Shown: in pieces, positions 25,656 through 64,000 of the stretch
Position numbering within the stretch: position 1 is the first letter of the stretch
Layout: the number at the start of each line of letters is the position of its first letter
Assembly: GCA_009599575.1 (NCBI GenBank)
Contig: VWND01000078.1
Coordinates: forward strand, 1-64,000
Direction of reading: 5' to 3'
Length of the DNA stretch: 64,000 nucleotides
Origin: Blumeriella jaapii
Taxonomy: Eukaryota; Ascomycota; Leotiomycetes; Helotiales; Drepanopezizaceae
Position numbers and translations under genes: made by a program
Notes under the pieces: model-generated
What the model was told of the DNA's origin: nothing
The model's input: the letters and a program-made list of their open reading frames with translations, nothing else
The model's database searches: none

Positions 25656-26475
25656 CTTAGGGGCGCCTGTGGGTGGGATTATAACCGATTCAACACCGAG
25701 TCAAATCCGAGTTAACATTTGGCGTAAAATTAATTCCGAGTATAATTAAAGTTAATACGCGATTAAATGAAAATTAATCTTAAAGTTATTAAAAATTAAT
25801 AAATACGATAAATTATATAATAATTCAAAGCTTCGAGAAAAATACAAATCTTATACGAATTAATTATTACTTTTTATCAACGCTTTTATTAACATCATTT
25901 CGCTGCCATTATTTCGCTGCTATTATCATCAATACTACTATTAACACTAATACCATCACCATCTCGCCGCCACCATCTTATTATCGCTATTATTAATATT
26001 ATTACTAATATTATTACTATTACTAATACTACTACCATTTCGCCGCCATCACCTTACTATCGCTACTACCAATATTACCATTAATACCATTATTAACACT
26101 ATTATTAATATTATTATTAACACTATTATTAACACTACTACTACCCTCTCGTCGCTATTATTATTATTATCATCTCGTCGTAGGTATTATTACCACTATT
26201 ATTATCATTATCACCACCACCTCGTCGCCGCCATCTCGTCGCCGCCATTTCGTCGCCATTACTAACACTACTATCAATACTATTATTAATACTATTACTA
26301 ATACTACTATTATTTCGCCGCTATATCTTTATTATCGCTATTATTAATACTACTATTAATATTATTACTAACACTACTATTACTAACACTACTACCATTT
26401 CGCCGCCATTACTTTACTGTCGCTACCATTAATACCACTATCAATCATTATTAATACCATTATTAACATTATTAT
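25656..26475 (+). mobile_element. S1 element, first segment (left arm and satellite)
   Basis: Begins cttaggggcgcc directly after TA inside orf3 of D1. The left arm (25656-25895) matches those of S2, S3 and S4 (reversed). Then follows a satellite of A-centred triplets (ttattaacactact type) with interspersed cgccgccatctcgtcgcc blocks. Element D2 interrupts the satellite at 26476. S1 continues at 46404-46593, 47962-48451, 50917-51830 and 53836-53920. No central module or right arm of S1 is visible. Confidence 0.8.
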
Positions 26476-37090: not shown

Positions 37091-37371
37091 CAGCAGGTCG
37101 CGTTTAAATATATACGAAGTATTATTATCGTCGTTTTTTTTCGTAGCGTCTCGTACAGCTTTTTTCGAAAGGCCATTAGGCTGCTAGCTGTGCGATTAGC
37201 GTAAAAAAGCTGGTTAATAATACGAAATGCGGGAAAAAAATCAGCTATTTTAACGATAAAAACAATTGTTTCGGAAGCCGTAAAAGGTCGAAGTTTTTCA
37301 GTTAAAAAACGGTGATTAATCTGATCGGCTCGAAAAAGGATTTGCAGGCGCTAAATGCGTTTAAAAAAGTT

Positions 37372-38065
37372 TTAACGATCGAATTCGCTCGTACGACGTA
37401 TTAATGCGTCAGCTAAAAAGTTGTATTTATTTGGTTTATACGTAATAAGAAAATTGTAGTCGGCGAAAAATTCGGCCCAGCGTGCCTGTCGAACGTTTAA
37501 AAGTTTAAAAATCATAAAATACTCTAAGGTTTTATAATTAGTAATTATTTTAATCTGATAAACTAAACTAATTAGTTCAGCACGAAAATTGCTTAAAAAT
37601 CTTACGATTACGAACATTTTTTTATCGTATACGACGTAGTTTAACTTTGCGAAAGCTATAGTTTTGCTAAAATAAGCGACTGGAAGCCAATCGTTATTAT
37701 AAAATTGCGAAAGCACAAAAGCTATTACGCCGTCGGAAGCGTTAGTTTTTAATATGCAAAAAAGGTTTTGCCTATAATATTATAAAACTGGTGTAATAAT
37801 AAAGGCTAATATAAAAAAATCGAAATTCTTCTGACATTTAGAAGTGAAATTATAAAAAACGTTAGCCTTAATCAAATGGACCAAAAGCTTTGCAATTATA
37901 CCGTAGTTTCGAATAAAACGTCGGTAAAAGTTATAAAAACCAAAAAAGCTTTATACACTTTTTACAATAATAAAAAGCTTTTAATAAGCGATTACGAAGA
38001 TTTTCTTTGGGTTTATTTTTAAATTTTTAATAAAAATAATAAAACTTAAATAACGGGTCCGAATA
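37372..38065 (-). pseudogene. RNase H and 3' part of reverse transcriptase of E
   Basis: RNase H is open from 37716 to 37372: LPVAYFSKTIAFAKLNYVVY, then YDKKMFVIVRFLSNFRAEL, ITNYKTLEYFM and ARWAEFFADYNFLITYKPNK, ending TSEFDR. This is the classic gypsy RNase H series. Upstream to 38065 is the thumb/connection part. S3 entered at TA (38064-38065). Confidence 0.85.
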
Positions 38066-38304
38066 CTTAGGGGCGCTTGTGGATGGGATTACAACCGATT
38101 TAACACCGAGTCAAATCCGAGTTAACACTTGGCGTAAAATTAACTCCGAGTATAATCAGAGTTAACACGCGATTAATTGAAAATTAATCTTAGTATTATT
38201 GAAGATTAATAGGTACGATAAGTTGTATAAAAATTCAAAGCTTCGAGAAAAATACAAATCTTATACGAATCTGTTATTATACTTTATCAACGCTTTTATT
38301 AACA

Positions 38305-39175
38305 CCACCTCGCCGCCACCATTTCGTCGCCATAATCACCACCATCACTACTACCACTATTACCACCACCACCTCGCTGCCACCACCTCGCTGCTACCAT
38401 CTTGTCGCTACCACTACTACTACTATTATCATCATTACCACCATTATTACCACCACCATTTCGCTGCTATCACCTCGCTGCCACCACCTCGCTGCCACCA
38501 CTTCGCTGCCACCACTTCGTCGCCACTACCACCATCACTATCATTACCACCATTATTATTACTACTACCACTACTATCATTACTATTACCACTACCATTA
38601 TTACTACTACTATTATCATTTTGCTGCCACCACCCTCGCTGCCACCACTTTCGCCGCCACCACCTCGTCGCTACTATCACTACTACTACTACCACCACTA
38701 CTACCACTACCACCATTATCACCACTACCACCACCACTACTACTACTATCACCATTACCACTACTACCACCATTATTATTACTACTACTACCACTTCGCT
38801 GCCACCATCTCGCTGCCACCACCTCGCTGCCACCACCTCGTCGCCACTACCACCACCACTATCACCATCACTATTACTACCACTACCACCATTATCATCA
38901 TTACTACCACTATCACTATTACCACCACTACCACCACTACTATTATTACCACCACCACTTCGCTGCCACCACTTCGCTGCCACCACCTCGCTGCCACCAC
39001 CTCGTCGCCACCACTACTACCACTATCACTACCACCACTACCACCATTACCACCACTACCACTACTACTATTACCATTACCACTATTACTACTACTACTA
39101 TCATTTTGCTGCCACCACCTCGCTGCCACCACCTCGCTGCCACTATCTCGTCCTCACCACCACCACCACTATTAT
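38305..39175 (+). repeat. S3 satellite, pyrimidine-A-pyrimidine orientation
   Basis: Triplets of the form CAC, TAC, CAT or TAT (A in every third position, C or T elsewhere) alternate with runs of the 14-bp unit CACCTCGCTGCCAC or its variant CACCTCGTCGCCAC. There is almost no G outside the 14-mers. Confidence 0.85.
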
Positions 39176-39282
39176 CATTATCATTACTATCATTATTATT
39201 ATTACTATTTGTATTTTCAAAAAAATATAAAAGTTTATTATATTTATTTTTTCGCTGCTATTACTTCGCTGCTATTATTATT

Positions 39283-39384
39283 ATTTCGCTAATACTATTT
39301 TGCTAGAAAAAATAACGAAAAGCCGAACAGCCGAACAGCCGAATAGCCGAACAGCCGAATAAGCTGAATAATTACAATGGTGGC
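39283..39384 (+). repeat. central module of S3
   Basis: About 100 bp of non-satellite sequence at the switch of satellite orientation. It holds ttcgctaatactattttgct, then five copies of an 8-bp unit (gccgaaca or gccgaata, 39333-39372), then attacaatggtggcagg. The same module occurs in S2, S4 and S5. Confidence 0.85.
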
Positions 39385-39885
39385 AGGAAGGTGGTAATGA
39401 TAATAATAGTGGTAGTAATGGTAATGGTAGTAATAGTGGTAGTGATAGTAGTAGTGATAATGGTGGTGGTGATGGTGGCGACGAGGTGGTGGCGACGAGA
39501 TGGTGGCAGCGAGGTGGTGGCAGCGAGGTGGTGGCAGCAAAATAATAGTAGTAGTGGTAATAGTGGTAGTGGTAATGGTAGTGGTGGTAGTAGTAGTAAT
39601 GGTGGTAATGGTGGTGGTGTTAGTGGTAGTGGCGACGAGGTGGCGGCGACGAGGTGTTGGTGGTGGTGGTGATAGTGGTGTTGGTAGTGTGTTGGTGGTG
39701 GCGACGAAGTGGCGGCGACGAAGTGGTGGTGGTGGTAATGATAGCGACGAGGTGGCGGCGACGAGGTGGTGGTGGTGGTAGTGGTGGGTGGTGGTGGCGA
39801 CGAGGTGGCGGCGACGAGGTGATGGTGGTGGTGGTGGCGGCGACGAGGTGGCGGCGACGAAATGGTGGTGTTGGTAAGGTTAATA
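39385..39885 (-). repeat. S3 satellite, opposite orientation
   Basis: The same triplet and 14-bp families as the left satellite, but read on the minus strand (plus strand shows GTG, GTA, ATG triplets and gaggtggtggcagc). The mirror arrangement makes the interior of S3 an imperfect giant inverted repeat. Confidence 0.85.
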
Positions 39886-40014
39886 TTAAAAGGTAGTGTT
39901 TAATAAACGTACTAATAGTTTTAATATAAGTTTTTTAATATATATTCGAAGGTTTGGTCAATATTAAATATCGATTTAATATAATAAATTTATAGGTTTA
40001 TAATTTTGTTTTGA

Positions 40015-40372
40015 TGTTAACACCGATTATACACCGATTATACACCGATTATATACCGATTATACTCGATAACACCGATTATACTCGGTGTAAAATCGTC
40101 ACATCGATGTGAGAGTAAACCGCGCCACTTCGGTGTTGACACCGATTAGCAACCGATTATACTCGGTTTTTAAAACCGGGTATACACCGATTATAATCGG
40201 TTTTAAAACCGATTGTAATCGATTAAAACCGGTAATAATCGGTGTATACTCGGTTTTGAAACCGATTATAATCGGTGTATACCCGGTTTTTAAAACCGAT
40301 TATAATCGGTGTATACCCGGTTTTGCAACCGGGTATAATCGGTTGTGATCCGACCCTAGATAAGCCGTACGG
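40015..40372 (+). repeat. right arm of S3 with palindromic repeats
   Basis: Dense copies of CCGATTATAATCGG and relatives (accgggtata, ccggttttaaaaccgg), each a short palindrome, separated by taca/tgta links. A conserved stretch gtaaaccgcgccacttcggt is embedded (about 40116-40135). The arm ends gatccgaccctagataagc and the palindrome ccgtacgg. Such subterminal repeats are typical of transposase-binding regions; that role is inferred. Confidence 0.8.
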
Positions 40373-40374
40373 TA

Positions 40375-41240
40375 ACGTTAAATTTAAACTTCCGAATATC
40401 GGCCTATAATTCAGCGTCAGCGAGCCTTTAAAGCATTTTGCGAACGTATATAACGTGTTTTAAAAAGTCGGACGAATAAATAAAAATATTATTCAGATAT
40501 ACAATGCAAAAATCGTTTAAATAATCGAAAAAAACGTCGTTTATATAACGATAATAAATTACGGATCTATTAATAAAGCCAAAAAATAGCATTTTGTATT
40601 TATAAGCGCCGTAACGCGTACGAAACGTCGTTAGTTTTTTATTAGCGAGGTTTATTCGAATTTTATAAAAAGCTTAACGAATATCGAGCTTCGTAAAAAT
40701 TCGCGCTTTCGAAAAACGAACAAAAGTCTTATCGATAAAAGAAAAAAAATAGCGATTTTTACGAATAATATTATTAAAAGCTCGATAATCGATACAAAAA
40801 CGTAATAAACCGTCGGGTTTTTTGGCGAAAAGCATTAGAACAGCGAAAAAAACGGTAAAAAGTTCGATAAAACCTTTGTTAAAATTATTTTGCAAATAAG
40901 TTTTAACAATTTCGAATTCTGGAATCGATATCTTATACAAAAAAATATATTTCAGCTTTTTTTCATTTATAATAAGCTCGATCTTATAATCGTAGGGCCG
41001 GTAAAAAGCTAGTTCGTTATTAGCGGCTTTAGAAAACACGTGTTCGAGGTTTTTATACTTCGAAAAAGATTCGAAAAAAAGTTTATTCGAAGTTAGCTTT
41101 GCTAAGCTAGTTAAAAAGGTCGAAATCGATATTTCGTTGGTTTTGAAACGTTCGAAAAGATTATGAAATTAAATCTTAAAAGAAATATTATACGTAAAAT
41201 CGTTTAATATTTTGTCGATTTCGTACAAAAAAATTAAAAA
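40375..41240 (-). pseudogene. 5' part of reverse transcriptase of E
   Basis: Frame 41039-40674 reads LAFYRPYDYKIELIINEKK, then AKKPDGLLRFCIDYRAFNN and FTKLDIR, that is, the fingers and start of the palm. The catalytic box lies near 40480-40500 and again appears as YLNN. The target site rebuilt across S3 matches copy A. Confidence 0.85.
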
Positions 41241-41975
41241 CATTTCAATTGCCTTTTTTCTAAAAATCAGCTTAAAAACGTATGTAATAATTTGGCAAAT
41301 GAAAATTAAGCAAGTAATAGATTAAAAGATTCGTTTTCGAACTGATCGTTTGAAAAATTCAAGAAATAGCTTGTTTAAATTATCGATTATATTAAGCTGA
41401 AAAGCTATCGCGGCGAAAGCTTTTCTTCGATTTTTGATATAATTATTTTTCGTAGAACGAAAAAGCTGTTTTGACGAAGGGAAAAAAAAAAAAAAAGAAA
41501 TAATAAAAAAAGGATCGGCAGCCTGGAAAAATAATATAATTTCTTGTATTATTCCACTGGCGTCGCTATCGAAATTGGCACCGCGAATAAAATTCGACCT
41601 TTTCGCGCTCCGTATAACGTCGTAGGTCTGCCATAATTAATCAAGGTTTTTGTCACGTTTTACAGCGTCGTTTTGATAGCGAAATTAAATCTTTCGGAAA
41701 TGCAAATAAAAGACTTTAATACAACGAGCGTAAAAGGCTATAAAAGGGTAAAACTTCGGCCAATAAAGCTTGCGTTTATTACAATCTAATAAAACTTAAT
41801 GTTCGGCTAATTAAATTTTTCTTAAAATCATACTATAATTTCCGAGATTAATAATTAAGAAAAAAGTAAATAATTATATTCGATTATTAACAATAAAATT
41901 AAAAAGCGTAAAATATATAATTAAATGGCTACGAGTTCTATTATACTCTTTTACAAAAAAAAAAACCGAAAAAAA

Positions 41976-42540
41976 TTAAATCAAAAGTTTAAAAAAAAAA
42001 AAAAAAGATTTGATCAGCGCCGAATCGATTAACGCGTAACCGTTCGCTCTAAAATCGGCGAGCGCTTTTATTTTATACGAAAAGCCATTTTTGATAAATA
42101 TAACGGAGATTATTAATAAATCGCTATTAAAAAGCTTTCGAACGTTAAAATAACGCATATCGCGTAATACGCCCAAAAAAAAAGCTTTGCTTAGGCTTAA
42201 GCGTTTCCCCGATTAGCGAAAAAATCTTTAACTTTTTCGTATCCGTTTTGAAAATCGTTTGAAAAAAGGTTTTCGTTTTTATTACTATTATTAAAAAGCG
42301 AATTTTCGGCCGGTTCGACCTCGTTTATATTTACCAGTTTGAAAAAGCTTTTAAATAAAACCGAAAATCGGCCCGTAAAAAATCGTGCAAATTAGCTTTT
42401 TTAAACTTTCTGATATAAAATAAAAAACGAGCGTTGTCGTTGGTCCGATCGAAAAAAAAAAACGCCAAAAGAAGCGTTTTGGCGTAAAAAAAAAGAAAAA
42501 ACAAATGGCTGAAAAAAAGCCTATAAAACATTTAAACGAT
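41976..42540 (-). pseudogene. protease region and gag C-terminus of E
   Basis: Frame 42176-41976 reads MRYFNVRKLFNSDLLIISV, then KALADFRANGYALID, a RIP-altered D-S-G-A protease site. Frame 42531-42331 (RTNDNARFLFYIRKFKKAN) matches the same place in A and B. Confidence 0.65.
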
Positions 42541-42639
42541 TTTCGTACGTACGATTTGACTCGTAATACGCTTTGGTTAAAAACCTACTATTTTAATAAA
42601 TAATAAACTTAATTAAAAAACGATTCGCGTATAAAATTC

Positions 42640-43795: not shown

Positions 43796-43800
43796 AATAA

Positions 43801-44067: not shown

Positions 44068-44072
44068 ATTGC

Positions 44073-46403: not shown

Positions 46404-46593
46404 TTATTAATATTATTATTAAAATTACCACCACCACCTCGTCGCTATCACCACCACTACCATCTCGTCGCCATTACTACCATTACTACTACTACCATTA
46501 TCACCACTTCGTCGCCGCCACCTCGTCGCCGCTATCTCGTCGCCATCATCAACACCACTATCAACACTATTACTAACACCACTACTATTACTA
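46404..46593 (+). repeat. S1 satellite, second segment
   Basis: Triplet satellite and cacctcgtcgccgc-type units continue after D2. Interrupted at TA (46592-46593) by the Tc1/mariner element. Confidence 0.8.
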
Positions 46594-47961: not shown

Positions 47962-48451
47962 TACTATTATTTCGCCGCCATATCTTTACTATCGCTATCA
48001 TCAACACTACTATTAACACCATTACCAACACCACCATTATTAACATTATTACCACTTCGCCGCCACTATTTCACTGTCGCTACTATCAATATTACCATTA
48101 ACACCACTATTAATACTATTACTAACACCACTACTAACACTATCACCACCATTTCGTCGCTATTATCACTACCACCACCTCGTCGCTATCATCACTACCA
48201 TTACCATTACTATTATTACTATCTCGTCGCCGCCACCTCGTCGCCGCCACCTCGTCGCCATTACTAACACTATTATTAACACTATTACTAACACTACTAT
48301 TAATACTACTACCATCTCGCCGCCATATCCTTATTGTCGCTACCATCAACACTATTATCAACACCATTACTAACATTATTACTAACACCATCATTACCAT
48401 TTTGTCGCTACCATTTTGTCGCTACTATTATCACCACCATTACCAACACTA
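47962..48451 (+). repeat. S1 satellite, third segment
   Basis: Triplets such as actattaacaccattacc and cgccgccatatc units. S2 follows at TA (48450-48451). Confidence 0.8.
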
Positions 48452-49865
48452 CTTAGGGGCGCCTGTGGGTGGGATTATAACCGATTTAACACCGAGTCAA
48501 ATCCGAGTTAACATTTGGCGTAAAATTAACTCCGAGTATAATCAGAGTTAACACGCGATTAAATGAAAATTAATTTTAGTGTTATTAAAGATTAATAAAT
48601 AGAATAGGTTGTGTATTAATTTAAAGCTTCGAGAAAAATACAAATTTTATACGAATTTATTGTAATTTTATTATTACCTTTTATTTACGCTTTTATTAAT
48701 ACCACTTCGCTGCTAATACCACTTCGCTGCCACCACCTCGTCGCCACCACTACCACTACCACTACCATTACTACCACCACCATCACCATCACCACCACTA
48801 TTACTACTATCTCGCTGCCACCACCTCGCTGCTACCCACCTCGCTGCCACCATCTCGCTGCCACCACCTCGCTGCCATCATCTCGCTGCCACCACTTCGC
48901 TGCTATCACTTCGCTGCCACCACTTCGCTGCCACCACTTCGTCGCCATCACCACCACCACCACTACTATCACTACCACCACTACCACCACCACTACTACT
49001 ACTACTACCATCTCGCTGCTATCACCTCGCTGCCACCACTTCGCTGCCACCACCTCGTCGCCACTACCACTACCTACCACCACCACTATTACTACCACTA
49101 CCACCATCACCATCATCACTACTACCATCATTTCGCTGCCACCATCTCGCTGCCACCACCTCGCTGCCACCACTTCGCTGCCATCACTTCGCTGCCACTA
49201 CTTCGCTGCCACCATCTCGCTGCCACCACCTCGCTGCCACCACTTCGCTGCCATCACTTCGCTGCCACTACTTCGCTGCCACCATCTCGCTGCCACCACC
49301 TCGCTGCCACCACTTCGCTGCCACCACCTCGCTGCCACCATCTCGCTGCCACCACTTCGTCGCCACCATCACCATCACCATCACTATCATTACCACTACT
49401 ACTACCACCACCACCACCACTACTACCACCATTTCGCTGCCACCACCTCGCTGCCACCATCTCGTCGCTACTACTACCATCACGACTACTATTACTACCA
49501 TTACCATTATTATTACTACTATCACTTGGTCGCTACTACTATTACCACTATTATCATCACTACTACCACTACTATTATTTCTATCATCACTACTACTATT
49601 ACTACTATTATTATTATTTTGCTGCCACCACCTCGCTGCCACCATCTCGTCGCCACCATCTCGTCGCCACCACCACCACTATTATTACTACTACCACTAC
49701 TACCACTACTATTATTACTACTACTATCATCATTATTATTATTATCACTACTATTACTATTACTATTATCATTTTGCTACTATCACTTCGCTGCTACCAT
49801 TTCGATGCTATCATTTCGTCGCTATCACCACTACCACCACTATTATTATCATTACTATTACTTCG

Positions 49866-49985
49866 CTGCTATTATTATTATTTCGCTAATATTATTTTGC
49901 TAGAAAAAACAACGAAAAGTCGAACAGCCGAATAGCCGAATAGCCGAACAGCCGAATAAGCTGAATAATTACAATGGTGGCAGGA
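49866..49985 (+). repeat. central module of S2
   Basis: ttattttgctagaaaaaac, then 8-bp units (gccgaata, gccgaaca; about 49927-49958), then aataattacaatggtggcag. It marks the change in satellite orientation. Confidence 0.85.
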
Positions 49986-50569
49986 AAGTGGTGGTGATAA
50001 TAGTAATGGTGGTAGTAGTGGTGATAGCGATAAGGTGGTGGCAGCGAGGTGGTGGCAGCGAGATGGTAGCAGCAAAATGACAATAGTAATAATAATAGTG
50101 GTAATGATGGTGGTAATGATGGTAGTAGTGGTAGTAGTGATAGTAGTGATAATGGTGGTAATAATGGTAGTGATAATGGTAGCGACGAGGTGGTGGCAGC
50201 GAAGTGGTAGCAGCGAAGTGGTGGCAGCGAGGTGATGGTGGTAATAATGGTAGCGACGAGATGGTGGTAGTAATGGTAGTGGTGGTGGTGGTAATGGTAG
50301 TGATGGTGGTGGTGGTGGTGGTAGTAGTGGTGGCGACGAGGTGGTGGCAGCGAGGTGGTGGCAGCGAGGTGATGGCAGCGAAGTGGTGGCAGCGAGGTGG
50401 TGGCAGCGAGGTGGTGGCAGCGAGGTGGTGGCAGCGAGGTGGTGGCAGCGAAAATATTATTAAATGTAGTATTAAATAAACGTAGTTTAAAATAAGATTT
50501 TTAATTTAAATTCGAAAGGTTTGGTATATATTAAATATCGATTTAATTTAGTTGTATAAATTTGTTTCG

Positions 50570-50916
50570 GTGTTTACACCGAGTATAATCGGTATTAATA
50601 CCGATTATAATCGGTAATACCGATTATATTCGGTGTTAAATCGTTATATCGATGTAAGAGTAAACCGCGCCACTTCGGTATTGACACCGATTAGCAACCG
50701 ATTATACCCGGTTTTAAAACCGATTATATACCGATTATAACCGAATTAAAACCGGTTATAATCGGTATATAATCGATTATAATCGGTGTATAATCGGTTT
50801 TGAAATCGATTATAATCGGTGTATACCCGGTTTTAAAAACCGATTATAATCGGTGTATACCCGGTTTTGCAACCGGGTATAATCGGTTGTGATCCGACCC
50901 TAGATAAGCCGTACGG
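50570..50916 (+). repeat. right arm of S2 with palindromic repeats
   Basis: More than ten CCGATTATAATCGG-type palindromes and ccggttttaaaaccg-type ones, with the same gtaaaccgcgccacttcggt block (about 50661-50680) as in S3. Confidence 0.8.
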
Positions 50917-51830
50917 TACTACCACCACCACCACTACCTCGTCGCCGCTACTATCTTACTAAATATTATCGCTACTATTATCAACACTACTATTAATATT
51001 ACTATTAATATTATTACTATTAATATTATTATCACTACTACCATTACCACTTCGCCGCCACCACCTTGTTGCTACCACCTCGCTATTGCTATTATTACTA
51101 ATACTATTATTAATATTATTATTATTATTTCCACTTCGCCGCCACCACCTTACTACCGCTACTATTATCAATACTATTATTAATATCACTATTAATATTA
51201 TTACCACCAATTTTATTATCACTACCACCACTACCATTTCGCCGTCATCATTTTATCGCTACCATCTCGCTGTTGCTATTATTACTAATATTACTATCAA
51301 AACTATTATTATTATTTTCACTTCGCCGCCACTATCTTACTATCGCCACTATTATTAATACTATTATTAATATTATTATTAACATTATTACTACTAATAT
51401 TATTATTATTATTATTACCACCCATTATTTCGCCGTTATCATTTTGTCGCTACCATTTCGCTGTTGCCATTATTACCAACATTATTATTAATATTATTAT
51501 TATTATTTTCATTTCGCCGCCATTATTTCGCTGTCGCTACTATTATTAACACTATTATCAACACTATTAACACTATTATTACCAATATTATTATTACTAT
51601 TACTACCATTTCGCCGCCATTATTTTATCGCTATCTTATTACTTCGCTGTCGCAATTATTATTAATATTATTATTAATATTATTATTACTATTTTCATCT
51701 CGCCGCTACCATTTCGCTATCGCTATTATGATTAATATTACTATCAAAACCATTAATAATATTATTATTAATATTACCACCACCATTTCGCCGCCACCAT
51801 CTTGCCGCTATTATTACGCTATCGCCATTA
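50917..51830 (+). repeat. S1 satellite, fourth segment
   Basis: A higher-order repeat of about 180-200 bp: ttcgccgccaccacc..., attattaatattatt..., atttcgctgtcgct... recurs near 51050, 51135, 51235, 51325, 51510, 51610 and 51690. It is more A/T-rich than the satellites of S2-S5, either because it is RIP-altered or because it is another satellite type. S4 follows at TA (51829-51830). Confidence 0.75.
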
Positions 51831-52190
51831 CCGTACGGCTTATCTAGGGTCGGATCACAACCGATTATACCCGGTTGCAAAACGGGGTATACACCGATTA
51901 TAATCGGTTTTAAAACCGGATATACACCGATTGTAATCGGTTTCAAAACCGATTATACATCGATTATAATCGATTATACACCGATTATAACCGGTTTTAA
52001 TTCGATTATAATCGATTATAATCGGTTTTATAACCGATTATAATCGGTGTATAATCGGTTTTAAAACCGAGTATAATCGGTTGCTAATCGGTGTTAACAC
52101 CGAAGTGGCGCGGTTTACTTTTACATCGATGTGACGATTTAACACCGAGTATAATCGGTAGTACCGATTATACTCGGTGTTAACACCGAA
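51831..52190 (-). repeat. right arm of S4 with palindromic repeats
   Basis: Same palindrome family and same order as S2 and S3: ccgtacggcttatctagggt at the end, then accgattataatcggt copies, then the cgaagtggcgcggtttac block (about 52099-52116). Confidence 0.8.
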
Positions 52191-52924
52191 ACAAATCTAT
52201 ACAACTAAATTAACTCGATATTTAATATATACTAAACTTTTCGAATTTAAATTAAAAATTTTATATTAAACCACGTTTATTTAATACTATACTGAATAAT
52301 ATTTTCGCTAATACTACCTCGCTGCCATCACTTCGCTGCCATCACCTCGCTGCCACCACTTCGCTGCCACCACCTCGCTGCCACCATTTCGCTGCCACTA
52401 TTTCGCTGCCACCACCTCGCTGCTATCACCTCGCTGCCACCATTTCGCTGCTACCACTTCGCTGCCACCATTTCGCTGCTATCACCTCGCTGCTACCACC
52501 TCGTCGCCACCACTATCATTACTATTACCACCATTACCACTACTACCATCACCACCACTATTATCACCACTACCACCACCATCTCGCTGCCACCACCTCG
52601 CTGCCACCACCTCGCTGCCACCACCTCGCTGCCATCACCCTCGCTGCCACCATTATCACCACCACCATCACCACTATCACTACTACTACCACCACTACCA
52701 TCATTACCATTATTACCACCACTACCATTATTACCATCATTATCACTATTACCACCATTACCATTATTACCACTACTACCACCACTACCATCACTACCAC
52801 CATTACTACCACTACCACCACTACCACCACTATCATCATCACCACTATTATTATTATTACCACCATTATTTCGCTGCCACCACCTCGCTGCCACCACCTC
52901 GCTGCTATCACCTCGCTGCTACCA

Positions 52925-53030
52925 TTGTAATTACCCAGCTTATTCGGCTGTTCGGCTATTCGGCTGTTCGGCTGTTCGGCTTTTCGTTATTTTTCTAGCA
53001 AAATAGTATTAGCGAAATAATAATAATAAT
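52925..53030 (-). repeat. central module of S4
   Basis: Reverse complement of the S3 module: ttgtaattacccagcttatt, 8-bp units (ggctgttc, ggctattc; 52950-52982), then ctagcaaaatagtattagcg. Confidence 0.85.
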
Positions 53031-53835
53031 AGTAGTGATAGTGGTGATAATAGTGGTGGTGGTAGTGGTGGTAGTGGTGGTAGTGGTAGTAGTGGTGGTA
53101 ATGGTGGTAATGGTGGTAGTGGTGGTAGTGATAGTAGTGGTGGTAGTAGTAGTGGTAGTAGTGGTGGTGGTGGTGGTGGTGATGATGGTGGCAGCGAGGT
53201 GGTGGCAGCGAGGTGGTGGCAGCGAGGTGGTGGCAGCGAAGTGGTGGCAGCGAAGTGGTGGCAGCGAGGTGGTGGTGGTAGTGGTGGTAGTGGTGGTGGT
53301 AATAGTAATAGTGGTGGTGGCGACGAGGTGGTGGCAGCGAAGTGATGGCAGCGAAGTGGTGGCAGCGAGGTGGTGGCAGCGAGGTGGTGGTGGTAGTGGT
53401 GATAATAGTGGTGGTGGTGGTAGTGGTGGTAGTGATGGTAATAGTAATGGTGGTGGTGGCGACGAGGTGGTGGCAGCGAGGTGATGGCAGCGAGGTGATA
53501 GATAGTAATAATAGTGGTGGTGATGGTGGTAATGGTGGTAATGGTGGTAGTGGTGGTGGTATTGGTGGTGGCGACGAGGTGGTGGCAGCGAGGTGGTGTT
53601 AATAAAAGCGTTGATAAAAGGTAATAACAAATTCGTATAAGATTTGTATTTTTCTCGAAGCTTTAAATTATTACACAACCTATCGTATTTATTAATTTTT
53701 AATAATACTAAAATTAATTTTTATTTAATCGCGTGTTAACTCTGATTATACTCGGAGTTAATTTTTTATTAAGTGTTAACTCGGATTTGACTCGGTGTCA
53801 AATCGGTTGTAATCCCACCCAAAGGCGCCCCTAAG

Positions 53836-53920
53836 TATTACTAATATTATTATTAAAATTATTATTACCATTTCTATTTTTCCGCTACCATCTCGCTGTC
53901 GCTACTATTTCCTTTTCCAT
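53836..53920 (+). repeat. S1 satellite, last visible segment
   Basis: Short continuation of the S1 triplet satellite after S4. It fades out into unrelated AT-rich sequence at about 53920 with no right arm, which suggests a deletion or rearrangement junction. Confidence 0.6.
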
Positions 53921-53987
53921 TTTTATTCGTCGATATCGAATTCTCGATTAAATAAATTAATAAAATTTATCGAAAAAATTATTTTGC

Positions 53988-54350
53988 GTAAAATCTCCGT
54001 ATATAAAAAAGCTGTTTTTTGATTTTTTTGTATAAAAACTGCTTTTTGCGTAAAAACTTCGTATATAAAAACTGCTTTTTGCGCGGGATTTCCGTATATA
54101 AAAACTGCTTTATACGCGGAAACTGCTTTTTTGCGCGAAAACTGCTTTTAGCGCGAAAACTGCTTTTTACGCGGGACTTTTATATATAAAAACTGCTTTT
54201 TGCGCGGGACTTCCGTATATAAAAACTGCTTTTTTGCGCGGAAATTGCTTTTTTGCGCGGAGATTGCTTTTTGCGCGGAGACTGCTTTTTGCGCGAAGAT
54301 TGCTTTTTGCGCGGGGACTGCTTTTTGCGCGGAGACTGCTTTTTAAAACC
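53988..54350. repeat. minisatellite with core ctgctttttgcgcgg
   Basis: About 15 imperfect copies of a core aaactgctttttgcgcgg. The first units include a ttccgtatata insert (about 33 bp per unit); the last ones are bare 17-19 bp units. Strand asymmetry is visible (T runs on plus). No gene. Confidence 0.85.
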
Positions 54351-57039
54351 TCGCGTATGCGACTACGCTAAGCTTTTTTAAATATAAAAAGCAATTCGCA
54401 TAATATTTTATTTGTACACCGGTATGCATTTTTTTTGTATATCGTTTCAACACCTGTATTTTTTCAAATTTTTTATAATATTATTTTACAACCGATGCAA
54501 TACGATATTTATTCGTCGCCGGCATTGGCTGTTATATTATAAGTATTCCGGAACCTTTTGATACAAATAAAATGCTTTTTTCAGCCCCGCCTTTTACAAA
54601 ACCTTATAAATTAATAATAGCAACGCAGATAGCAATCAGTTCGCTCGCTGCTTCCGTTTATATTATACGCCTAAATTTAATTTTCGTATATATTCGGATC
54701 CCGATACTAACGAGAATAAATTATTAAACATATTTTTTTATCTTAATTAATATATTTATATATTACGTCTATTATATTTCCTGCTATTTATTATTATCAG
54801 CGCGCTATTTAACATATCTAATTTTAATTATTAATCTAGCCAATTTAATCAATCCACTATTATTATGCTATTTTAGCTTTTTAAAAAGCGCAAAAAAGTT
54901 TTTCGCGAAAATACATTCGATAAATCAGAAATTTCCGATGAAATTATAAAAGATTTTTAAATTTATATACGAAAAACGGGATAAATTAAAACGAACGGAT
55001 ATTAACAATCGCAAGCGGAATATGAAAATTTTCGATAGCGATAATAAAAATAATACAAATGGCTTAATATATAATAGCTTTATTCGAGCTAAAAATGCAA
55101 AAGTATATTCGCATTACGATTTTAATATTATTATTATATATTATTTAATAATTAACGATAGCTTTATTAAAAAACTTATTTTCAGCCTGCGACGAAAGCG
55201 AAATCTGTTAAAAAGGCTGTTAATAATTTTTTTACCGACTATAAGGCAAAAGCAATAGTAATATTTAATCAGCGTCGAGAATAACCGGCTCGTAAGCATT
55301 TTCGAAAGCAACCGGCTCGCAAATATTTTCGAAAGCAATCGGCTCGCAGGCATTTTCGAAAGCAACCGGCTCGCAAGCAAACCTACGTGCTTTTTAATCA
55401 CAGTTCTTTTTATTTTAGTCGCAATCCAATTTATTTTTTCGGTCGCAATTCAATTTTTTAAAGCGGCTTTTTATATATATTACATTTGTTGCTTTTATTT
55501 TTATTTTTACTGCCACTGTTATTGCTATTGCCCCGAAGCAGACGCAAGCCAAAGTTAAAAGTAGAAAAAGGCTTTTCCAAACATTTATAACCCTTCCATC
55601 TGACGAAAACGAGAATAATAAACAAAAAGTTAAAAAGCGAAAGCGCAAATCCAATATTTTTTAATACCTAAAAGCCTCCGAATCCAAGAAAATACAGCAA
55701 AAAGCAGCTAGAAAAGTATTTATCGAATATATTAAAACCGAAAATAAAATTATAGCTGAATTAAAGCTTTGAAACCGCCGGATTTATATAACAAAGCTCG
55801 ATCGAAACAAATGTTATATATCGGTACAAAAAGTTTTTCCGGGCCTATCGAATATTAATGTTATATTAAAAAATTGCGTTTATAAATCGAACTTCGATTT
55901 TTAAAAATTAAAAAAGTTTAATTTTTCGCAAAAAAATATATTTTTATCAAAAGTTTGTTTAAAAACAATCGTTATAATAAAGCTTTAACGCAAAGCACGG
56001 ATTACGGATTTTTAAAAAATACGATTAATTCGCGATTTTAGGTATATTAAATCGAATTATTATTTTTTGTTTTGTTTTTTTTCTTCGGCGATCGATATTG
56101 CTAATATATCCGAACTAAAATTCAATTTTTTGCGTTATAAATTTACCTGTTCTTTTGTATATTAAAAATACTAAATATAATTTATTCAGACCTTTAAATT
56201 CCGTTGTTTATATTATAATCCACGAGCGTTTTTACTCGCATTTATAACAAAATCAAAAACGATAATCTTTCGAAATTTATTCGTTATTATTAGCTAGCCG
56301 CATTTGATAGCTTTTACAAATTGGTTGTTTTTAATATTCTATCAATCAAAACGACTTTCCAATTAACGCAGTTTCCATTTTATTAAAGCGCCAGACCCGC
56401 GAGATTATCGATCTTAATCAAAACCAAGATATAACCGTAAATAAAAATTTTTTCGCAAGTACTAACGGAAACACTTAACAGTCTAAGATTAATAAAAAAA
56501 ATAATAGGCTTAATAATAATAAAATAAATTAAAATAAGAAATAATGCTTAATTATTAAATTTCGGGCGATTAATATTAATACTAATGTTTTAAAAATATA
56601 TAATATCCATTTGATTTTGACGTCCGAAAAAGCAGACGGAAATAATAGCATATAAAAAAAAAATATATATATTATTTATACCGGTAACGAATTTTGTTCG
56701 CTTTATGCCCGTGTTCCGCGTTTTATCGCGGCGGAACGCGGGTTTACATAAATAATATACGCCTACCTTTATTTTTTTATTTTTTTATGCGTTTGCATTT
56801 TGCATTTTTTTACTAATAATATCCATTTTTTTTGCTACATATACCTATTATTACTGCGGTAGTAATATACCAGTCGTTATAATAATACGACGTTTTAATA
56901 CAACGCGACTATTTATCTAGTAATAATCGATTAACGAATCCTTTTTTTTATTATCCTCGTTTTTATTTTTATTTTTTGCAATATCTACAGCTTCTTCCGA
57001 TTCCGACCACAGCGACGATTATATTTATAACGACTACGA
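54351..57039. other. AT-rich stretch with degenerate coding remnants
   Basis: No intact gene. A plus frame is open at 55022-55258 (MKIFDSDNKNNTNGLIYNSF, then RRKRNLLKRLL) and leads into a 27-bp tandem repeat. Further plus-frame patches occur to 56600 but I recognise no family. A Ser/Asp-rich patch (TASSDSDHSDDYIYNDYD, about 56985-57038) directly precedes the solo LTR and continues after it. It may be the RIP-damaged body of one large element. Confidence 0.4.
55268..55380 (+). repeat. 27-bp tandem repeat, four copies
   Basis: The unit attttcgaaagcaaccggct plus cgcaagc is repeated about four times. On the plus strand it reads ESNRLAxIF (nine residues), so it may be a repeat inside a former protein. 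Confidence 0.75.
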
Positions 57040-57453
57040 TGTAAGGATTGAAAGGCAGGGAAACACTAGTTCAGACAATAGAGCTCAGATAAGGTTGGGT
57101 TGATAGTCAGACTGATCTCTACCTTCTACATCTCTAGTAGAAGGCGTGTATAAGTACAAAAGGAGGGGTGGAGCCCTCGAGAAGAGTATTTCCCAGGAAA
57201 CCAGGCGAGCCCCATTTAGTATACTTCTCCAGCCCCCATCCCGACCTCTTCTCAATCCTTCTCAATATAACTCTAATAACTGGTTCCTTAGCAATCACTC
57301 CCATAAAGTGTTTTACCTAAATGTCATCTCCAGCCCCCACAGTACTATCCGGCCCCCACGGCCTATCCGCAGAGAGTACTATTCGAGGGTTGGTAGGAGG
57401 CAGAGGGTCTTGGCGGATCACCTGACTCATACACGTGATGTTGGTTCCTGACA
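57040..57453 (-). repeat. solo LTR of family C (414 bp)
   Basis: Reverse-strand LTR with ends tgtaagg (left, plus strand) and cctgaca (right), flanked by a perfect 5-bp duplication TACGA (57035-57039 and 57454-57458). No internal region adjoins, so the body was lost by LTR-LTR recombination. It is almost free of RIP and the least mutated retroelement sequence in the window. A 102-codon open frame inside it is a by-product. Confidence 0.93.
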
Positions 57454-58165
57454 TACGATAAACGCATATACAAAAAAGCTGGCAATAAAAACTACGATAA
57501 AACTAAAAATAAAATTAATAATAAAACCGGATGCAAAACTAAATACGATGCTAATAATTAAAATAAAAACATAGCTATTATTAATAACGATTCCGGTATA
57601 TATAATAAAAACGAAAACAATAATATAAATAGCAAAAATAATAGTATAAATAACGAGGATATTAATATAAATAACGAAGATATTGATATAAATAACGAAA
57701 ATATTAATATAAATAATAAAAACAATAATATAAATAATAAAAATAATAATATAAATAGCGAAAATATTAATGTAAATAACGAAAATATTAATATAAATAA
57801 CGAAAATATTAATATAAATAACGAAGATATTAATATAAATAATAAAAACATTAATATAAATAACGAAAATATTAATATAAATAACGAAAATATTAATTTA
57901 AATAACGAAACGTTAGTATAAATAACGAAAACAATAACGTAAATAATAAAAATAATAATATAAATAACGAAAACAATAACGTAAATAACGAAAATAACAA
58001 CGTGGATAACGAAAACGTTAATTTAAATAATAAGAAAAATAGCGACGTTATAAACGGCGAAAACGATAATATAAATAATCGTAATAATATTGTAAATAAT
58101 AAAAAGGAAAATACAAAATTAAAAAGTTTTTACGATAATATAAATATATATTGCGTTTAAAAATA
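57454..58165 (+). pseudogene. Asn-rich degenerate frame with 7-residue repeats
   Basis: The plus frame continues the Ser/Asp-rich patch that precedes the solo LTR (YNDYD, then YDKRIYKKAGNKNYDKTKNK). It runs into tandem repeats reading NNENINI or NNKNNNI. Stops occur at about 57567 and from 57918 on. A low-complexity Asn-rich protein or linker of an old element is likely; function unknown. Confidence 0.4.
57620..57912 (+). repeat. 21-bp tandem repeat
   Basis: The unit aataacgaaaatattaatat plus a is repeated about 14 times with small changes that keep the codon phase on the plus strand. Confidence 0.85.
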
Positions 58166-58187
58166 ATATTAATAATTATAAAATATA

Positions 58188-59428
58188 ATGCAAATCCCAA
58201 ATAAAACTGAAATAATATCTTCCGATATATCTGAATTAATTATTTTTCCGTATAATTCAATTTTATTTGTTATTGTTTCCAGCTTATTTTTTTTACTAGT
58301 TTCATCAGATCTCGAGTTTATTATTATATTAACAGCTAAAAAACCTATATCACTTTTTTATTTTGCAATTAAATTATAATACGAAAAAAACTCGATATTC
58401 CGGACGGTATATAAACAGCTTCGACAGCTTTTTTTTATAGCCCAAAACGTTATTTTCAAACAAAAAAATATATTGAAACTGCTTTTTAAAATAAACACTC
58501 TGAAAAAAACAGTTGCGTGTCCACCTTTTATTATTGCGTTTATTAAAACGACCGATTACTATCGTATTAAAAAAACAGGCTATATTAAAAAAAAACAGAA
58601 AAGCAAAACCGGGCGTATACGAATAATTAAAAAAAACGTAGTATTATTAATATAATTCAATAGATTTAATCGCTTATTTAATGCGAGCGAGTATTATTAT
58701 AAATAAAATGCATCTGAGTATAACCTAGTATATTAATAAATTTTATGAGTTTTATTATTTTAAAGCTTAAAGTATATTTGTATTAACGACTTCCGGAGAT
58801 TTTACCCGAAGTTTAAACGATAATATCCTTTTGCTAAAAAATATCGTTAAATTAATAAGCTTTATAAATAGCTTTTCCAAAAGTCGTATTACGTTTATTA
58901 AACGTGAACATCGATCGAAACTTTTTACTGTTATCGAAAATATTATTTTTATTATAATAAAAATAGCTTTTCGAAAAAAAAAATACCCGATAATATTAAC
59001 ATTTATTTAAAAAATCAAAAGCTTTTTATTTTTAGTAAAACGTTCGAAATTGTTCCGAAGCAGATTGCATACCGAAGCGTTGTTATAATCCTTTAGAAGT
59101 TTAATAATACAAAAAAAACTGATATCCATATAAATAGATTTTTTATTAAACATATTATCGGATTGAATCGAGCTATTATAATAAAAGTCCGGAAAATTTA
59201 TCTTTTACGAGCCGAATTAAAAATCGGTATTTACGGTCGGAAATATTTCGAAAAATTTGCTAGCTTTTAATATTGTATATCTGTCCCGTTTATTTTGTTT
59301 ATAAACGATTTCGAAATATATCGCAACAATTATAAAGCTATTAAAAGGTTTTATATCACACCGGCGAATCTAACCTTCGAAAAAAACGCCGAAAGTCTGA
59401 TAATAATTTCATTTTTATCCTAAAGCTA
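58188..59428 (+). pseudogene. degenerate ORF, possible large DNA-transposon transposase
   Basis: A plus frame broken by stops: MQIPNKTEIISSDISELIIF (58188 on), ATVACPPF-like PPFIIAFIKTTDYYRIKKTG (about 58518-58575), KTGRIRIIKKNVVLLI (about 58605-58652), then FRRFYPKFKR and, near 59280-59390, VPFILFINDFEIYRN followed by YKAIKRFYITPANLTFE. That last pattern (P-F-x-L-F-x-D-D-F-x-x-Y-R-N, then Y-x-x-x-x-x-F-Y-x-x-P-A-x-L) reminds me of the transposase-like ORFs of large fungal DNA elements of the Plavaka/KDZ kind, but I cannot verify it. Cut at TA (59427-59428) by S5. Confidence 0.3.
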
Positions 59429-59815
59429 CCGTACGGCTTATCTAGGGTCGGATCACAACCGATTATACCCGGTTGCAAAACCGGGTATACACCGATTATA
59501 ATCGGTTTTAAAACCGGGTATACACCGATTATAATCGGTTTCAAAACCGATTATATACACCGATTATAATCGATTATACACCGATTATAACCGATTTTAA
59601 TTCGATTATAATCGATTATAATCGGTTTGAAAACCGATTATAATCGGTATATAATCGGTTTTAAAACCGGATATAATCGGTTGCTAATCGGTGTTAATAC
59701 CGAAGTGGCGCGGTTTACTTTTACATCGATATAACGATTTAACACCGAGTATAATCGGTATTACCGATTATAATCGGTATTAATACCGATTATATTCGGT
59801 GTTAACACCGAAACA
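59429..59815 (-). repeat. right arm of S5 with palindromic repeats
   Basis: Palindromes of the CCGATTATAATCGG family, then the cgaagtggcgcggtttac block (about 59701-59718) as in the other right arms. Confidence 0.8.
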
Positions 59816-60470
59816 AATTTATACAATTAATTTAAATCGATATTTAATATATACCAAACCTTTCGAATTTAAATTAAAAATCTTATATTAAACTACGTTT
59901 ATTTAATATTATATTTAATAATATTTTCGCTAACACTATCTCGCTGCCATCATCTCGCTGCCACCACCTCGCTGCCACCATCTCGCTGCCACCATTTCGT
60001 CGCTACCACCACTACCACCACCACTACCACCACCACCTCGCTGCCACCACCTCGCTGCCACCACCTCGCTGCCACCACCTCGCTGCCACCACCTCGTCGC
60101 TACCACCACCATCACCACTACTACCACCACCACCTCGCTGCCACCACCTCGCTGCCACCACCTCGCTGCCACCACCTCGCTGCCACCACCTCACTGCTAC
60201 CACTTCGCTGCCACCACCTCGTCGCCATCACCATCACTATCACCACCATTACTACTATCATTATTATTATTATTACCACCATTACTACCACCATCTCGTC
60301 GCTACTATTATTACCACCACCACCTCGCTGCCACCACCTTGCTGCTACCACCTCGCTGCTATCACCTCGCTGCTACCATTTCGCTGCTACCATTTCGTCG
60401 CCACCACCACCACCATTATTATTACCACCACCATCACCATTATTATTATCACTACCTTCCTGCCATTATT

Positions 60471-60565
60471 ATAATTATTCAGTTTATTCGACTGTTCGGC
60501 TATTCGGCTGTTCGGCTGTTCGGCTTTTCGTTGTTTTTTCTAGCAAAATAGTATTAGCGAAATAA
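60471..60565 (-). repeat. central module of S5
   Basis: 8-bp units ggctgttc and ggctattc (about 60491-60528), followed by ctagcaaaatagtattagcg. It marks the change of satellite orientation. Confidence 0.85.
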
Positions 60566-60848
60566 TAATAATAGCAGCGAAGTAATAGTAATAATAATAG
60601 TAGTGGTGGTAATAGTGGTGATAGCGACGAAATGATAGTAGCGAAGTGGTGGCAGCGAAGTAGTAATAGTAATAGTGATAGCGACGAAATAATGGTAGTA
60701 ATAATAATAATGATGGTGGTAATAGTAGTAATAATGATGGTAGTGGTAATAGTGGCGACGAGATGGTAGCAGCGAAGTAATAATAGCAAAATAATAATAG
60801 TAATAGTAATAATAGTAATAATAGTGATAATAATAATAATAGTGATAG

Positions 60849-61115
60849 TGTAAAAGTAGGTAGGAAAACCAGACTGATACGGCCATATGTCGGTGGGTAA
60901 GATAGTCTAGGAAATTTCTAGAAAAGACTGAAGAAAGGAAAAAAAAAATAAGTAAAAGTATAAATTGAACTGCGTGCTTATGATATTATTTAAGGAAGTG
61001 CTTTGCTTTTATACTTGTTAAAGATAGTTAATAGCAGAAGGTTTCGGAAAAGTTTATGCTTCGACTATAATTAAAACTATTAACTTTTATTAATATAAGA
61101 TATTACCGTTTTATA
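60849..61115 (-). repeat. 3' LTR of element D4 (267 bp)
   Basis: The outer (left) end tgtaaaagtagg and its neighbouring 90-100 bp are clean. The inner end is RIP-altered (ccgttttata). Confidence 0.92.
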
Positions 61116-61199
61116 TTCTGTTTTAAATAATATACGTAGTCGTTTTTAATTACGATTAAAAAAAAACATAATTTTAATAAATGCAATTTAATTTATTTT

Positions 61200-64000
61200 A
61201 TATGATTTAAAAACTAATTAATTAAAACCGAATTCGTTAGCTTTATATTTTTTCGGTTTTTTAATCCGTTTAGCCTTTTTGCTATTAGCTTTTGCGAAAA
61301 GATAGCGTTTCGCTTATCGTTTAAATTATTTTGTTTATTTTGCTTTTTTAAAAAATGGCTCGATGAAATGTCAGTCGAAGTGTCGTTTAAATCTACGAAC
61401 GTTTTGATAACTTTTTCGTCGATAATATTATTAAACGTCGCCGCGACGAATGCTTTTTACGATTTTTTTTCGTAAATAATAAATTTCAATTTTTAAACGT
61501 GATTTTACGTTTTGCAAAAAGCGTTGAAAAATCTTATATTAAAATCGTAAAAGTAATCGATTAATTCGTCGTAATTAAAACCGATTAACGCTTTTGCTTC
61601 GCGCAAAACTGATAGGTCGGATTACGGTTGTTTATCGACGAATGCTTTTAAAAAAGCTTCGAAATTTGTAAAAAAAACTATTTTACGGAATAATTCGGAA
61701 ATAATCGTTTGCAATCGAAATTATCGAAAATGTTATAATTGCTTTCGCCGTAATACAAATAGTATTAGATTGCTTATCGGATTGTTGTTTTCGAAATAGT
61801 TTTTGTATTTTTACGTCGTATAATTATTCGAATAAATTAGTATCGCGCCGTCGGTTTTTTGGGTTTTAAATTTAACGAAAACCTTTTGTTTAGTCGAAAA
61901 GCTAATAAAAGTTATTTTATTTTTTATTTCGTAGCTTTCGGTTTCGTAATCCGATAAAATAACCGAAGCCACTGCTTTAAACGCGCTGAAATACAAGGAA
62001 GCTAGGTTTTTCTGAATAGTTTTAGTTAATTTGGCGTCGTAGTATAATTGCAAATAAGTTTCGATTATTTCCGAGTTGTATACGAGTGCAAGCAGAACGT
62101 AATAATCGAAAATGGCGTCGGTAAAGTTTTCGATTTTTTTTTTTTTTTAAAAGTCGGCGATATCGAATTTTATAATTGTAATACGGTCGGGGCCAGCGAG
62201 ATTTAAAACGATTAAAACGTTAAAGTATATTACGAAGCGGCAGTTTTTAAAATTTCGAATAATTAAAACAGCGAAGTAAAAGCCGGGGTGCATTTTAAAA
62301 GCTTATTAAATAAAATTATAAAACATATTAGCGAAAAAAGCTATAGGCGCTTTTTGAGTTTTGATTAGTCGGAAATAATACTTATATATAATTATTTTTT
62401 TTTTTATAAAATATAGCAGTGGCTTGTTTTTTCCGTTGTAAAATTTTACGTAATTAACGAATTCGCAGTTTAGTTTAAATAAACTTTAAAATATATTTTC
62501 GGTTGAAAAACCAAAAAAATCGGCTTTTAAAAATATTTGTTGTTTTTATTTTTTTACGTTTTAATCGAGCTTTATAATCGCGCTGAAAGCTTTAGGGTTT
62601 GCTTTGAAATTTACGTAGCCTAAATAAGTTTTAGTACGCGCTTAAGTAATTTTCGTAATTTTTCGTCGAAATATAAATTGGTTATTAAAATTAATTTCGA
62701 ATACGTCGTAATTTAAATTTTTAATAGCAACGAATCGATTAGCGAGGCCGATAACGTTAATTCTTTTTGTAATTAAATCGCAGTACGCCGCGTAACAGCG
62801 TACGTAAAAATAATAAAATTTATCGTTTTTTTTAGTATTAATATTATTCGTAAAAATAAAATTAAAAAATCGGAGTTTTTTAACGAAAAAAAGCTCGAAT
62901 AAAAACGGATTATTGTTTTTAAAATTTTTTTTTATTTATTCCGGCGTATTATATTTGCAATTTTTCGAAAAAAGTTTAATTTAGTTTTCGTTCGAAGTAA
63001 AAAAAAAAAAGCTGACGGATTTATTTGATTTTTATGTAAAAATATCGAAGTAAAACTTTTGAATCGTTTCGTCGTCGAAAGCGAAAGTTTTAAATAAAAT
63101 AATTTGATTTTATGCTTTTTGCGTAATTTTTTCCGCGATAATTTCGATATTTTTTTTCAAACCTTTTCGGTCGAATTATATAATAGTCGAAATTTTAAAT
63201 GCTTTTATTAAAATCTGAAATATTAGCGGTGTTAGTACGACGTTTTTAAACGCAGCAAGCGTTTTTGGTATTTGCGTATTTAATTTCGAAAAATCAAATT
63301 CAAAATCGTTTAGGTTTTTTTTTTTCGGAATGCCGGCGTTTTTTGAATTTGATTTCGTAAAATCGTCGCGTTTTTTATTAATTAGCTTAAAACTTATAGC
63401 TTGGCGTCGATTTCCGGCCGTTTTTATTCGCGGTGCTTTTTTTGTTAGCGACGCGAATGGTTTTTTTTTTCGAATAAAAAAGATTTCGGAAATGTCGGCG
63501 CGCTTTTTTACGTTTTTTGTTTTTACTTTTTCCGAAATAATTTTTATAAATATAATAGGTTTTTTATATTCGAATAAACGGTTGTTTATTATTACGCTTT
63601 TAATTTCGTTTTCGGATTTGTTTTCGATAGTTAAAAATAAAAGTCGTCGAATTATTTTAGCCGTTTTAAAAATATTAATTACTATTGCGTGTATTTTTTC
63701 GAATTAAACGAAAATAATATTAACTTTTTCGTTTTTTTCGTCGTCGTAGATTTAAAATATCGAAATAGTATCGTTTTTTTCGTTCGGTATAAAAATGCCG
63801 CATTTGGCGACGCTTAGTTTTTTGTTTTAAAAAAAAATTAAATTTAAAATTTCGCAGCCGATTAAAACTTTTTTTGACGATTATATAACGTCGTCGATTA
63901 GTTTGCAAACAGTTGTAAAAAAGTTTGTGAATTTACGGGCTTTTGGGTTGTTGGCTTTTAGAGTTTGCGTTTTAAAAATATAAGCGTTTAGTATTTAAAT
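61200..64000 (-). pseudogene. orf3 of element D4 (partial, degenerate)
   Basis: Third copy of the unidentified frame downstream of pol. Minus frame 62053-61811 reads MQLYYDAKLTKTIQKNLASL, then DYETESYEIKNKITFISFST and TDGAILIYSNNYTT. Minus frame 63908-63720 reads MQTNRRRYIIVKKSF, matching D1 near 23535 in another frame. It runs to the window edge at the point equal to about 23450 of D1. Confidence 0.55.

Follow-up and report, generated by a model that had tools for sequence, protein, structure and literature searches.

A TA-targeting, satellite-carrying mobile element of Blumeriella jaapii and its long form with a gene for a putative RAG1/CACTA-type transposase

The CACTA/EnSpm-Mirage-Chapaev-Transib (CMCT) clade of transposons includes Transib, which, like RAG, duplicates 5 bp of its target, and histone reading in RAG is performed by a PHD finger of the partner protein RAG2. 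In the present study, we describe S, a satellite-carrying mobile element that duplicates TA in the fungus Blumeriella jaapii, starting from a stretch of 64,000 nucleotides (contig VWND01000078.1, positions 1 to 64,000 of the forward strand; hereafter the window, lying on the contig here called C76) and, within it, from the copy S3. We consider it very probable that S represents the non-autonomous form in a family of cut-and-paste DNA transposons, and that a RAG1/CACTA-type DDE transposase is encoded by the long form of this family (approximately 11-12 kb).

Several described systems resemble S in part. In the available portion of the source, PlavakaA is given the tips TGT..ACA and PlavakaB the tips CATCA..TGATG, and ESTA is presented as an EnSpm-like group with TA duplication and a reported RAG1-like transposase (PMC12730594). 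The TA duplication is common to S and ESTA, a comparison made by description only, whereas the ESTA families described in that portion come from rust fungi and possess a TET/JBP gene, and the S pieces scanned gave no Pfam match. Foldback, Galileo and Tetris elements have in common with S a middle enclosed by long inverted arms that are repetitive internally and vary in length, as far as the accessible parts of the descriptions go (PMC3573991, PMC4079207). Galileo, however, belongs to the P superfamily, unlike S with its CACTA/RAG1-type transposase, its TA duplication and outermost arms that do not form an inverted pair. The satellite-carrying Helentrons of oysters also harbor an internal satellite-like array (PMC7492417, available excerpt), but S duplicates its target and goes with a DDE-type transposase.

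A search of the 47.4 Mb genome with patterns for the two tips (up to 3 mismatches) recovered 69 left and 75 right S ends, against 0 for the reversed-pattern controls. Nested pairing of these ends resulted in 67 pairs and 10 single ends, and the family is thus far larger than the five copies counted in the original prediction. Once nested S copies were subtracted, 55 of the 67 pairs were shorter than 4 kb (1645-3535 bp, median 2287 bp), one of them enclosing a nested long copy. The flanks were read for the best-scoring 30 left and 30 right ends, of 40 scored on each side, and TA was present at 27/30 left and 27/30 right ends, as compared with a TA frequency of 0.115 in the window. No two of these flanks were related (0/435 pairs per side above 70% identity over 40 bp), and the copies are therefore not products of segmental duplication, the circumstance that had been named as fatal to the prediction. 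Furthermore, 19 site queries, representing 18 distinct sites (L002 and L029/L066 are one element) and judged by inspection, revealed at 11 of the 18 a clean empty relative with a single TA in the place of the two that border the filled site. As for the other seven, those of S2 and S4 aligned loosely, one had TG instead of TA, two showed no TA pair or clear junction, and two had no spanning match. The change from one TA to two had been proposed for S2, S3 and S4; it holds for S3, the insertion site of which is intact with a single TA in the repeat elements A and B, and for S2 and S4 it is borne out as far as the flanking TAs, their presumed empty sites in the satellite aligning only loosely. 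These observations established S as a real family of TA-targeting mobile elements with independent insertions.

As summarized in Table 1, S3 consists of a left arm, a satellite array, a central module, an inverted satellite array and a right arm, the boundaries of which were assigned by inspection, and S2 and S4 proved to be complete units with the same order of parts and TA on both sides, as predicted. The left tip CTTAGGGG and the right tip CCGTACGG are not inverted repeats in the 30 left and 30 right ends compared. Instead, the two termini share the offset motif GGATYACAACCGATT, which occupies bases 21-35 of the left terminus and bases 22-36 of the right one, each counted from its tip (approximately 20 bp inside), the two copies being identical at 14 of 15 positions, in agreement with the earlier description of the ends. 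The right arm contains 16 CCGATT on both strands, the mean in shuffled sequence being 0.19. Since this number lies far above the shuffled mean and the reversed patterns found none against the 69 and 75 true ends, the shared motif is not due to chance. The satellite unit occurs genome-wide 529 times in forward and 543 times in reverse orientation (reversed-pattern control, 0/0), and the tandem repeats within its long inverted arms give S a foldback-type layout. The central module was whole in 4 of the 7 short loci compared, with 92-99% identity.

Such a layout, with its central satellite, palindromic right end and offset sub-terminal repeats, also resembles that of the satellite-carrying Helentrons in the accessible part of their description (PMC7492417), and S could accordingly be regarded as a rolling-circle element of Helentron type that met TA as a chance target. 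The comparison of filled with empty sites nevertheless demonstrates that TA is duplicated, which Helitrons and Helentrons do not do to their targets, and the product encoded by the long copies described below is related to proteins for which a RAG1-like fold is predicted. No Rep/helicase was detected in Pfam scans of the long-copy pieces, a dedicated genome search not having been made. We regard a rolling-circle origin as improbable to the point of being almost negligible.

The original prediction had proposed mobility by a TA-targeting transposase in trans and suggested a longer copy with the same arms and a transposase as the thing to look for, and six such copies were found. Six full-length copies of the DNA at 57900-59428 of the window, itself included, are present in the genome (C16, C51, C12, C62, C5 and, in the window, C76), each within a long pair of S ends. 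S1, which had been taken for a partial copy, is where one such long copy with a transposase gene starts on its left side, the right end being at C76:77158, beyond the window, and S5, likewise taken for partial, is a full end pair. Net of nested S, four of the long copies measure 11,250, 11,578, 11,665 and 12,327 bp and that on C5 16,735 bp; for that on C76, a net length of approximately 11.7 kb can be estimated by leaving out the repeats at 26476-46423, the Tc1-type element, the solo long terminal repeat (LTR), S2, S4 and S5. Where read, the long form has the plan left arm, satellite, genes, inverted satellite and right arm, and its arms are 87-90% alike to those of S3 (two left arms and one right arm). 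In the right-arm tree, the six long copies fell on one 100/100 branch together with five other ends, namely four from short pairs including S3 and a single one at a contig start. Five further long pairs of S ends were without coding DNA (C8 22963, C65 1126528, C12 64188, C14 9938 and C76 59429). A 9.8 kb pair on C91 was tried as an autonomous copy and rejected, its middle consisting of other window repeats followed by S satellite.

A better-kept stretch of a long copy retrieved P0002, a protein of 1185 amino acids from an assembly of the lichen fungus Pyrenodesmia (E 5.3e-5 in 5.8 billion proteins); the C-terminal stretch as a protein query yielded one chance match (E 0.14), and comparison of P0002 with NCBIfam and the PDB sequences gave nothing useful. 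A search with P0002 recovered 63 proteins including itself, of 664-1314 amino acids; most entries are unnamed, and the named sources (Pyrenodesmia, Gyalolechia, Gallowayella, Seirophora, Letharia, Coleophoma, Trichoderma and Jackrogersella) are ascomycetes. The profile built on the 63 proteins, with E-values computed for 42 translations, gave collinear matches to the long copies (L081, E 2.4e-66; L080, E 7.8e-45) and to the window copy (E 5.5e-30), where the match continues in L078 (E 1.1e-40). Frames and loci outside the transposase gene, including L069, gave no profile match below E 0.9. When P0002 was compared with the genome, all six long copies were found together with three relatives that are not within any pair of S ends (C18:468144-469013, C2:987073-987777 and C73:1183596-1184387), which are possibly other families of the same clade.

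Among the relatives, D386 and D471 are each conserved in 36/37 and E569 in 34/37, while E624 is present in 28 of 38 rows, E569 and E624 both being candidates for the catalytic Glu. A C(2)C motif follows the second Asp (C490 and C493, 36/37 each); H514 occurs in 34/37 and H510 in 10/37 relatives, which leaves the conservation of an H(3-4)H pair in doubt. The C(2)C motif, a 2-bp target duplication (2-3 bp in Plavaka, TA in S) and matches of two relatives to the model PF18759 recall Plavaka, to which the S transposase family appears to be only distantly similar. A structure model of the best relative predicted a RAG1/Transib-type core, with sequence identity to RAG1/Transib of approximately 9%, into which a BAH (histone-reader) fold is inserted, and the models thus point to both the RAG1/Transib-type catalytic fold and the BAH fold in this transposase family. 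In contrast to RAG, where the reader is the PHD finger in RAG2, the BAH-like domain would lie within the transposase itself. BAH domains are placed in DNA methyltransferases in the available portion of PMC4352252, and our literature searches, which covered parts of the sources, turned up no described BAH-bearing transposase. On the basis of the predicted fold and the profile, S is assigned to the CACTA/RAG1 clade.

Given that Tc1/mariner and pogo elements also duplicate TA, it might be argued that S is moved by such transposases of the genome, the gene in the long copies being a passenger. The genome does contain 24 DDE_3 and 5 DDE_1 matches, one DDE_3 match lying inside the S1 satellite (47466-47627). 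This last match was rejected as an S transposase, as it belongs to a separate Tc1/mariner-type element (46594-47961, 1368 bp) located in the satellite between two TAs, with its own terminal inverted repeats of 29 bp (26/29 identical) unlike the S tips. The S tips have no inverted repeats and only the sub-terminal motif in common, the one DDE_3 match between S ends in the window is that of the separate unit, and the CACTA/RAG1-type gene lies between S ends in all six copies. We therefore judge mobilization by Tc1/mariner or pogo transposases to be very unlikely. The expectation that S belongs to no named family held for PlavakaA and PlavakaB, to which the comparison was confined: their termini, as given in the available part of PMC12730594, are unlike those of S, which are not inverted, and S has satellite arms. 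The tips thus set S apart from Plavaka, and tips and gene alike set it apart from Tc1/mariner; its resemblance to foldback elements is one of architecture only, and within the CACTA/RAG1 clade it is unusual in its foldback/satellite architecture, non-standard tips and predicted chromatin-reader domain.

Several observations weigh against S being the non-autonomous partner of this long form. TA was missing at 3/30 left and 3/30 right flanks. No long copy is intact, stops being present in the matched pieces of all six, and the read-throughs of the long copies gave no Pfam match beyond noise. PF18759 matched only 2/37 relatives (E <= 0.1, best 3.9e-6) and none of the S read-throughs, and Asn takes the place of Asp at the likely first catalytic position in the S copies read (5/6) and in P0002. 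The structure model of the C62 copy was weak (predicted local distance difference test score, pLDDT, 61.8; predicted template modeling score, pTM, 0.58) and partly shaped by the relatives in its alignment. The left-arm tree lacked one group uniting the long copies with the same short copies; five of the six long copies stood with two short copies at low support, and the sixth elsewhere. Finally, the central module is absent from the long-copy pieces read, and hence simple loss of internal DNA from those pieces does not account for the short form.

The long copies nonetheless share the ends and satellite arms of S, their coding DNA is homologous to the transposase family, and the copies read are decayed. 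In the mechanism that we propose, the transposase would bind the shared GGATYACAACCGATT that lies 20-21 bp from either tip and, probably, the repeated CCGATT as well, excise the unit and join it to TA, which would thereby be duplicated. The short form, which has no genes and carries a central module of its own, would be mobilized in trans, as originally suggested and now backed by the six long copies with the same ends. The satellite arrays, which are inverted relative to one another and separate the middle from the binding arms, may act as flexible spacers, and their slippage is probably the source of most length variation.

The 77 S elements are gathered into 20 blocks, each S-bearing contig having a single block, and the blocks together make up 1.36 Mb or 2.9% of the assembly. 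In these blocks or within 20 kb of them, 6/40 exact LTR matches and 4/24 DDE_3 matches were located, and S rarefied to 40 formed a mean of 16.7 clusters (maximum 20) as compared with 30 for the LTRs, the control consisting of the 40 exact matches among the 100 listed of 512, which are perhaps the youngest copies. S is thus clustered, whereas the sampled LTR and Tc1-type elements are dispersed, a difference compatible with targeting and retention alike. Speculatively, the BAH-like domain might direct insertion to a chromatin compartment, which would account for the 20 tight blocks. That a BAH-bearing RAG1-like transposase steers the family into a particular type of heterochromatin, possibly that of centromeres, where nesting short copies plant or enlarge satellite, seems to us rather unlikely. 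We lean toward retention, namely wide insertion with survival only in gene-poor, recombination-poor DNA (possibly centromeres), the BAH-like domain having another role. In line with retention, the S copies of the window sit in AT-rich DNA scarred by repeat-induced point mutation (RIP), 15/20 blocks have an edge within approximately 0.15 Mb of a contig end, as expected of large repeat blocks, and C1, the longest contig seen (3.09 Mb), contains no S, which does not support one block per chromosome. These 15 block edges lie near contig ends as if the assembly broke there, and the blocks are candidate centromeres or other large repeat blocks. Exact (TTAGGG)5 was not found in the assembly, and centromeric and subtelomeric blocks are not distinguishable thereby.

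Traces of RIP also bear on the success of the short form, whose short arms and hypervariable satellite might keep homology below the RIP threshold. Transitions were in large excess in the coding region of three long copies (533 transitions to 16 transversions) and in pieces of the repeat elements A, B and E (816 to 48), whereas the S arms gave ratios of 2.6 and 1.8, and CpH-to-TpH changes were more frequent in the left arms of the 6 long copies than in those of 30 S loci (0.244 vs 0.102, one-sided p = 0.001). The right arms, however, were alike (0.103 in 6 long copies vs 0.092 in 27, p = 0.21), and the S arms may be constrained by function or have spread in late bursts. Escape from RIP is thus conceivable, though we incline somewhat against it. 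In the alignments of S arms, long copies and LTR elements, CpG was nearly exempt from C-to-T change (0.002-0.033 vs 0.04-0.20 for C in other contexts), and CpA and CpT were equally affected, an unusual context for RIP; the observed/expected ratio of CpG in the window is 2.6.

The remaining S sequences of the window are included in Table 1. The region upstream of the long-form transposase (53914-57040 and its C51 counterpart L082) contains CTGCTTTTTGCGCG repeats and is perhaps a second gene; the longer open stretch in the C51 copy gave no Pfam match. A solo LTR with the ends TG..CA, bordered by TACGA on either side, occupies 57040-57453, with a G+C content of 0.48 vs 0.19-0.27 in its flanks, and related stretches are found near 559-992 of the window and in L069. 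Adjoining S1 is a pair of 8.9 kb repeats, 86% identical (15354-24246 and 26472-35351).

Table 1. Coordinates of S3, its parts and the other S copies (window positions; C76, positions on the contig beyond the window)
Feature	Position	Strand	Remarks
S3, complete, probably non-autonomous element	38066..40372	+	Sharp ends, TA either side; single TA in empty sites of elements A and B
S3 TA duplication, left copy	38064..38065	.	
S3 TA duplication, right copy	40373..40374	.	
S3 left arm	38066..38302	+	Sub-terminal motif GGATTACAACCGATT at 38086-38100
S3 left satellite array	38303..39209	+	14-bp unit CTCGCTGCCACCAC and ACY/ATY triplets
S3 central module of short form	39210..39376	+	Absent from long-copy pieces read
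S3 inverted satellite array	39377..39876	-	
S3 right arm	39877..40372	+	16 CCGATT (both strands), three ACCGATTATAATCGGT palindromes, tip CCGTACGG
S2, complete	48452..50916	+	Within S1 satellite, TA both sides
S4, complete	51831..53835	-	Within S1 satellite, TA both sides
S5	59429..64000	-	Right end 59429, left end C76:73065 past window; enters LTR element at ~60857
S1, left arm and first satellite stretch	25656..26475	+	S1 is a long copy with a transposase gene
S1 satellite, resumed after other repeats	46424..46593	+	Continuity inferred
S1 satellite, resumed after Tc1/mariner-type insertion	47962..48451	+	
S1 satellite separating S2 from S4	50917..51830	+	
S1 satellite end and upstream region	53836..58331	+	Equivalent C51 region (L082) without family match
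S1 decayed transposase gene, N-terminal half	58332..59381	+	Profile positions 19-372; interrupted by S5
S1 transposase gene, continuation	C76:73075-74255		Profile positions 390-770; L078 bases 126-1306

Taken as the short form of the family proposed here, S turns from an orphan satellite repeat into part of a complete two-component transposon system, the autonomous type of which begins, as S1, in the same window as the short copies. Through it, the CACTA/RAG1 clade would be joined to a foldback-like architecture that carries satellite, a combination not encountered in our literature searches as far as the accessible parts of the sources go. Within the same limits, a family of RAG1-like transposases into which a BAH domain is predicted to be built appears to be undescribed. 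If the steering of S by such a transposase were true, S would be a mobile element that seeds fungal heterochromatin or the satellite of centromeres, in parallel to RAG, where the chromatin reader resides in the partner RAG2; and should the reader domain direct insertion, the placement of DNA transposons in heterochromatin and the arrival of satellite there would become testable.
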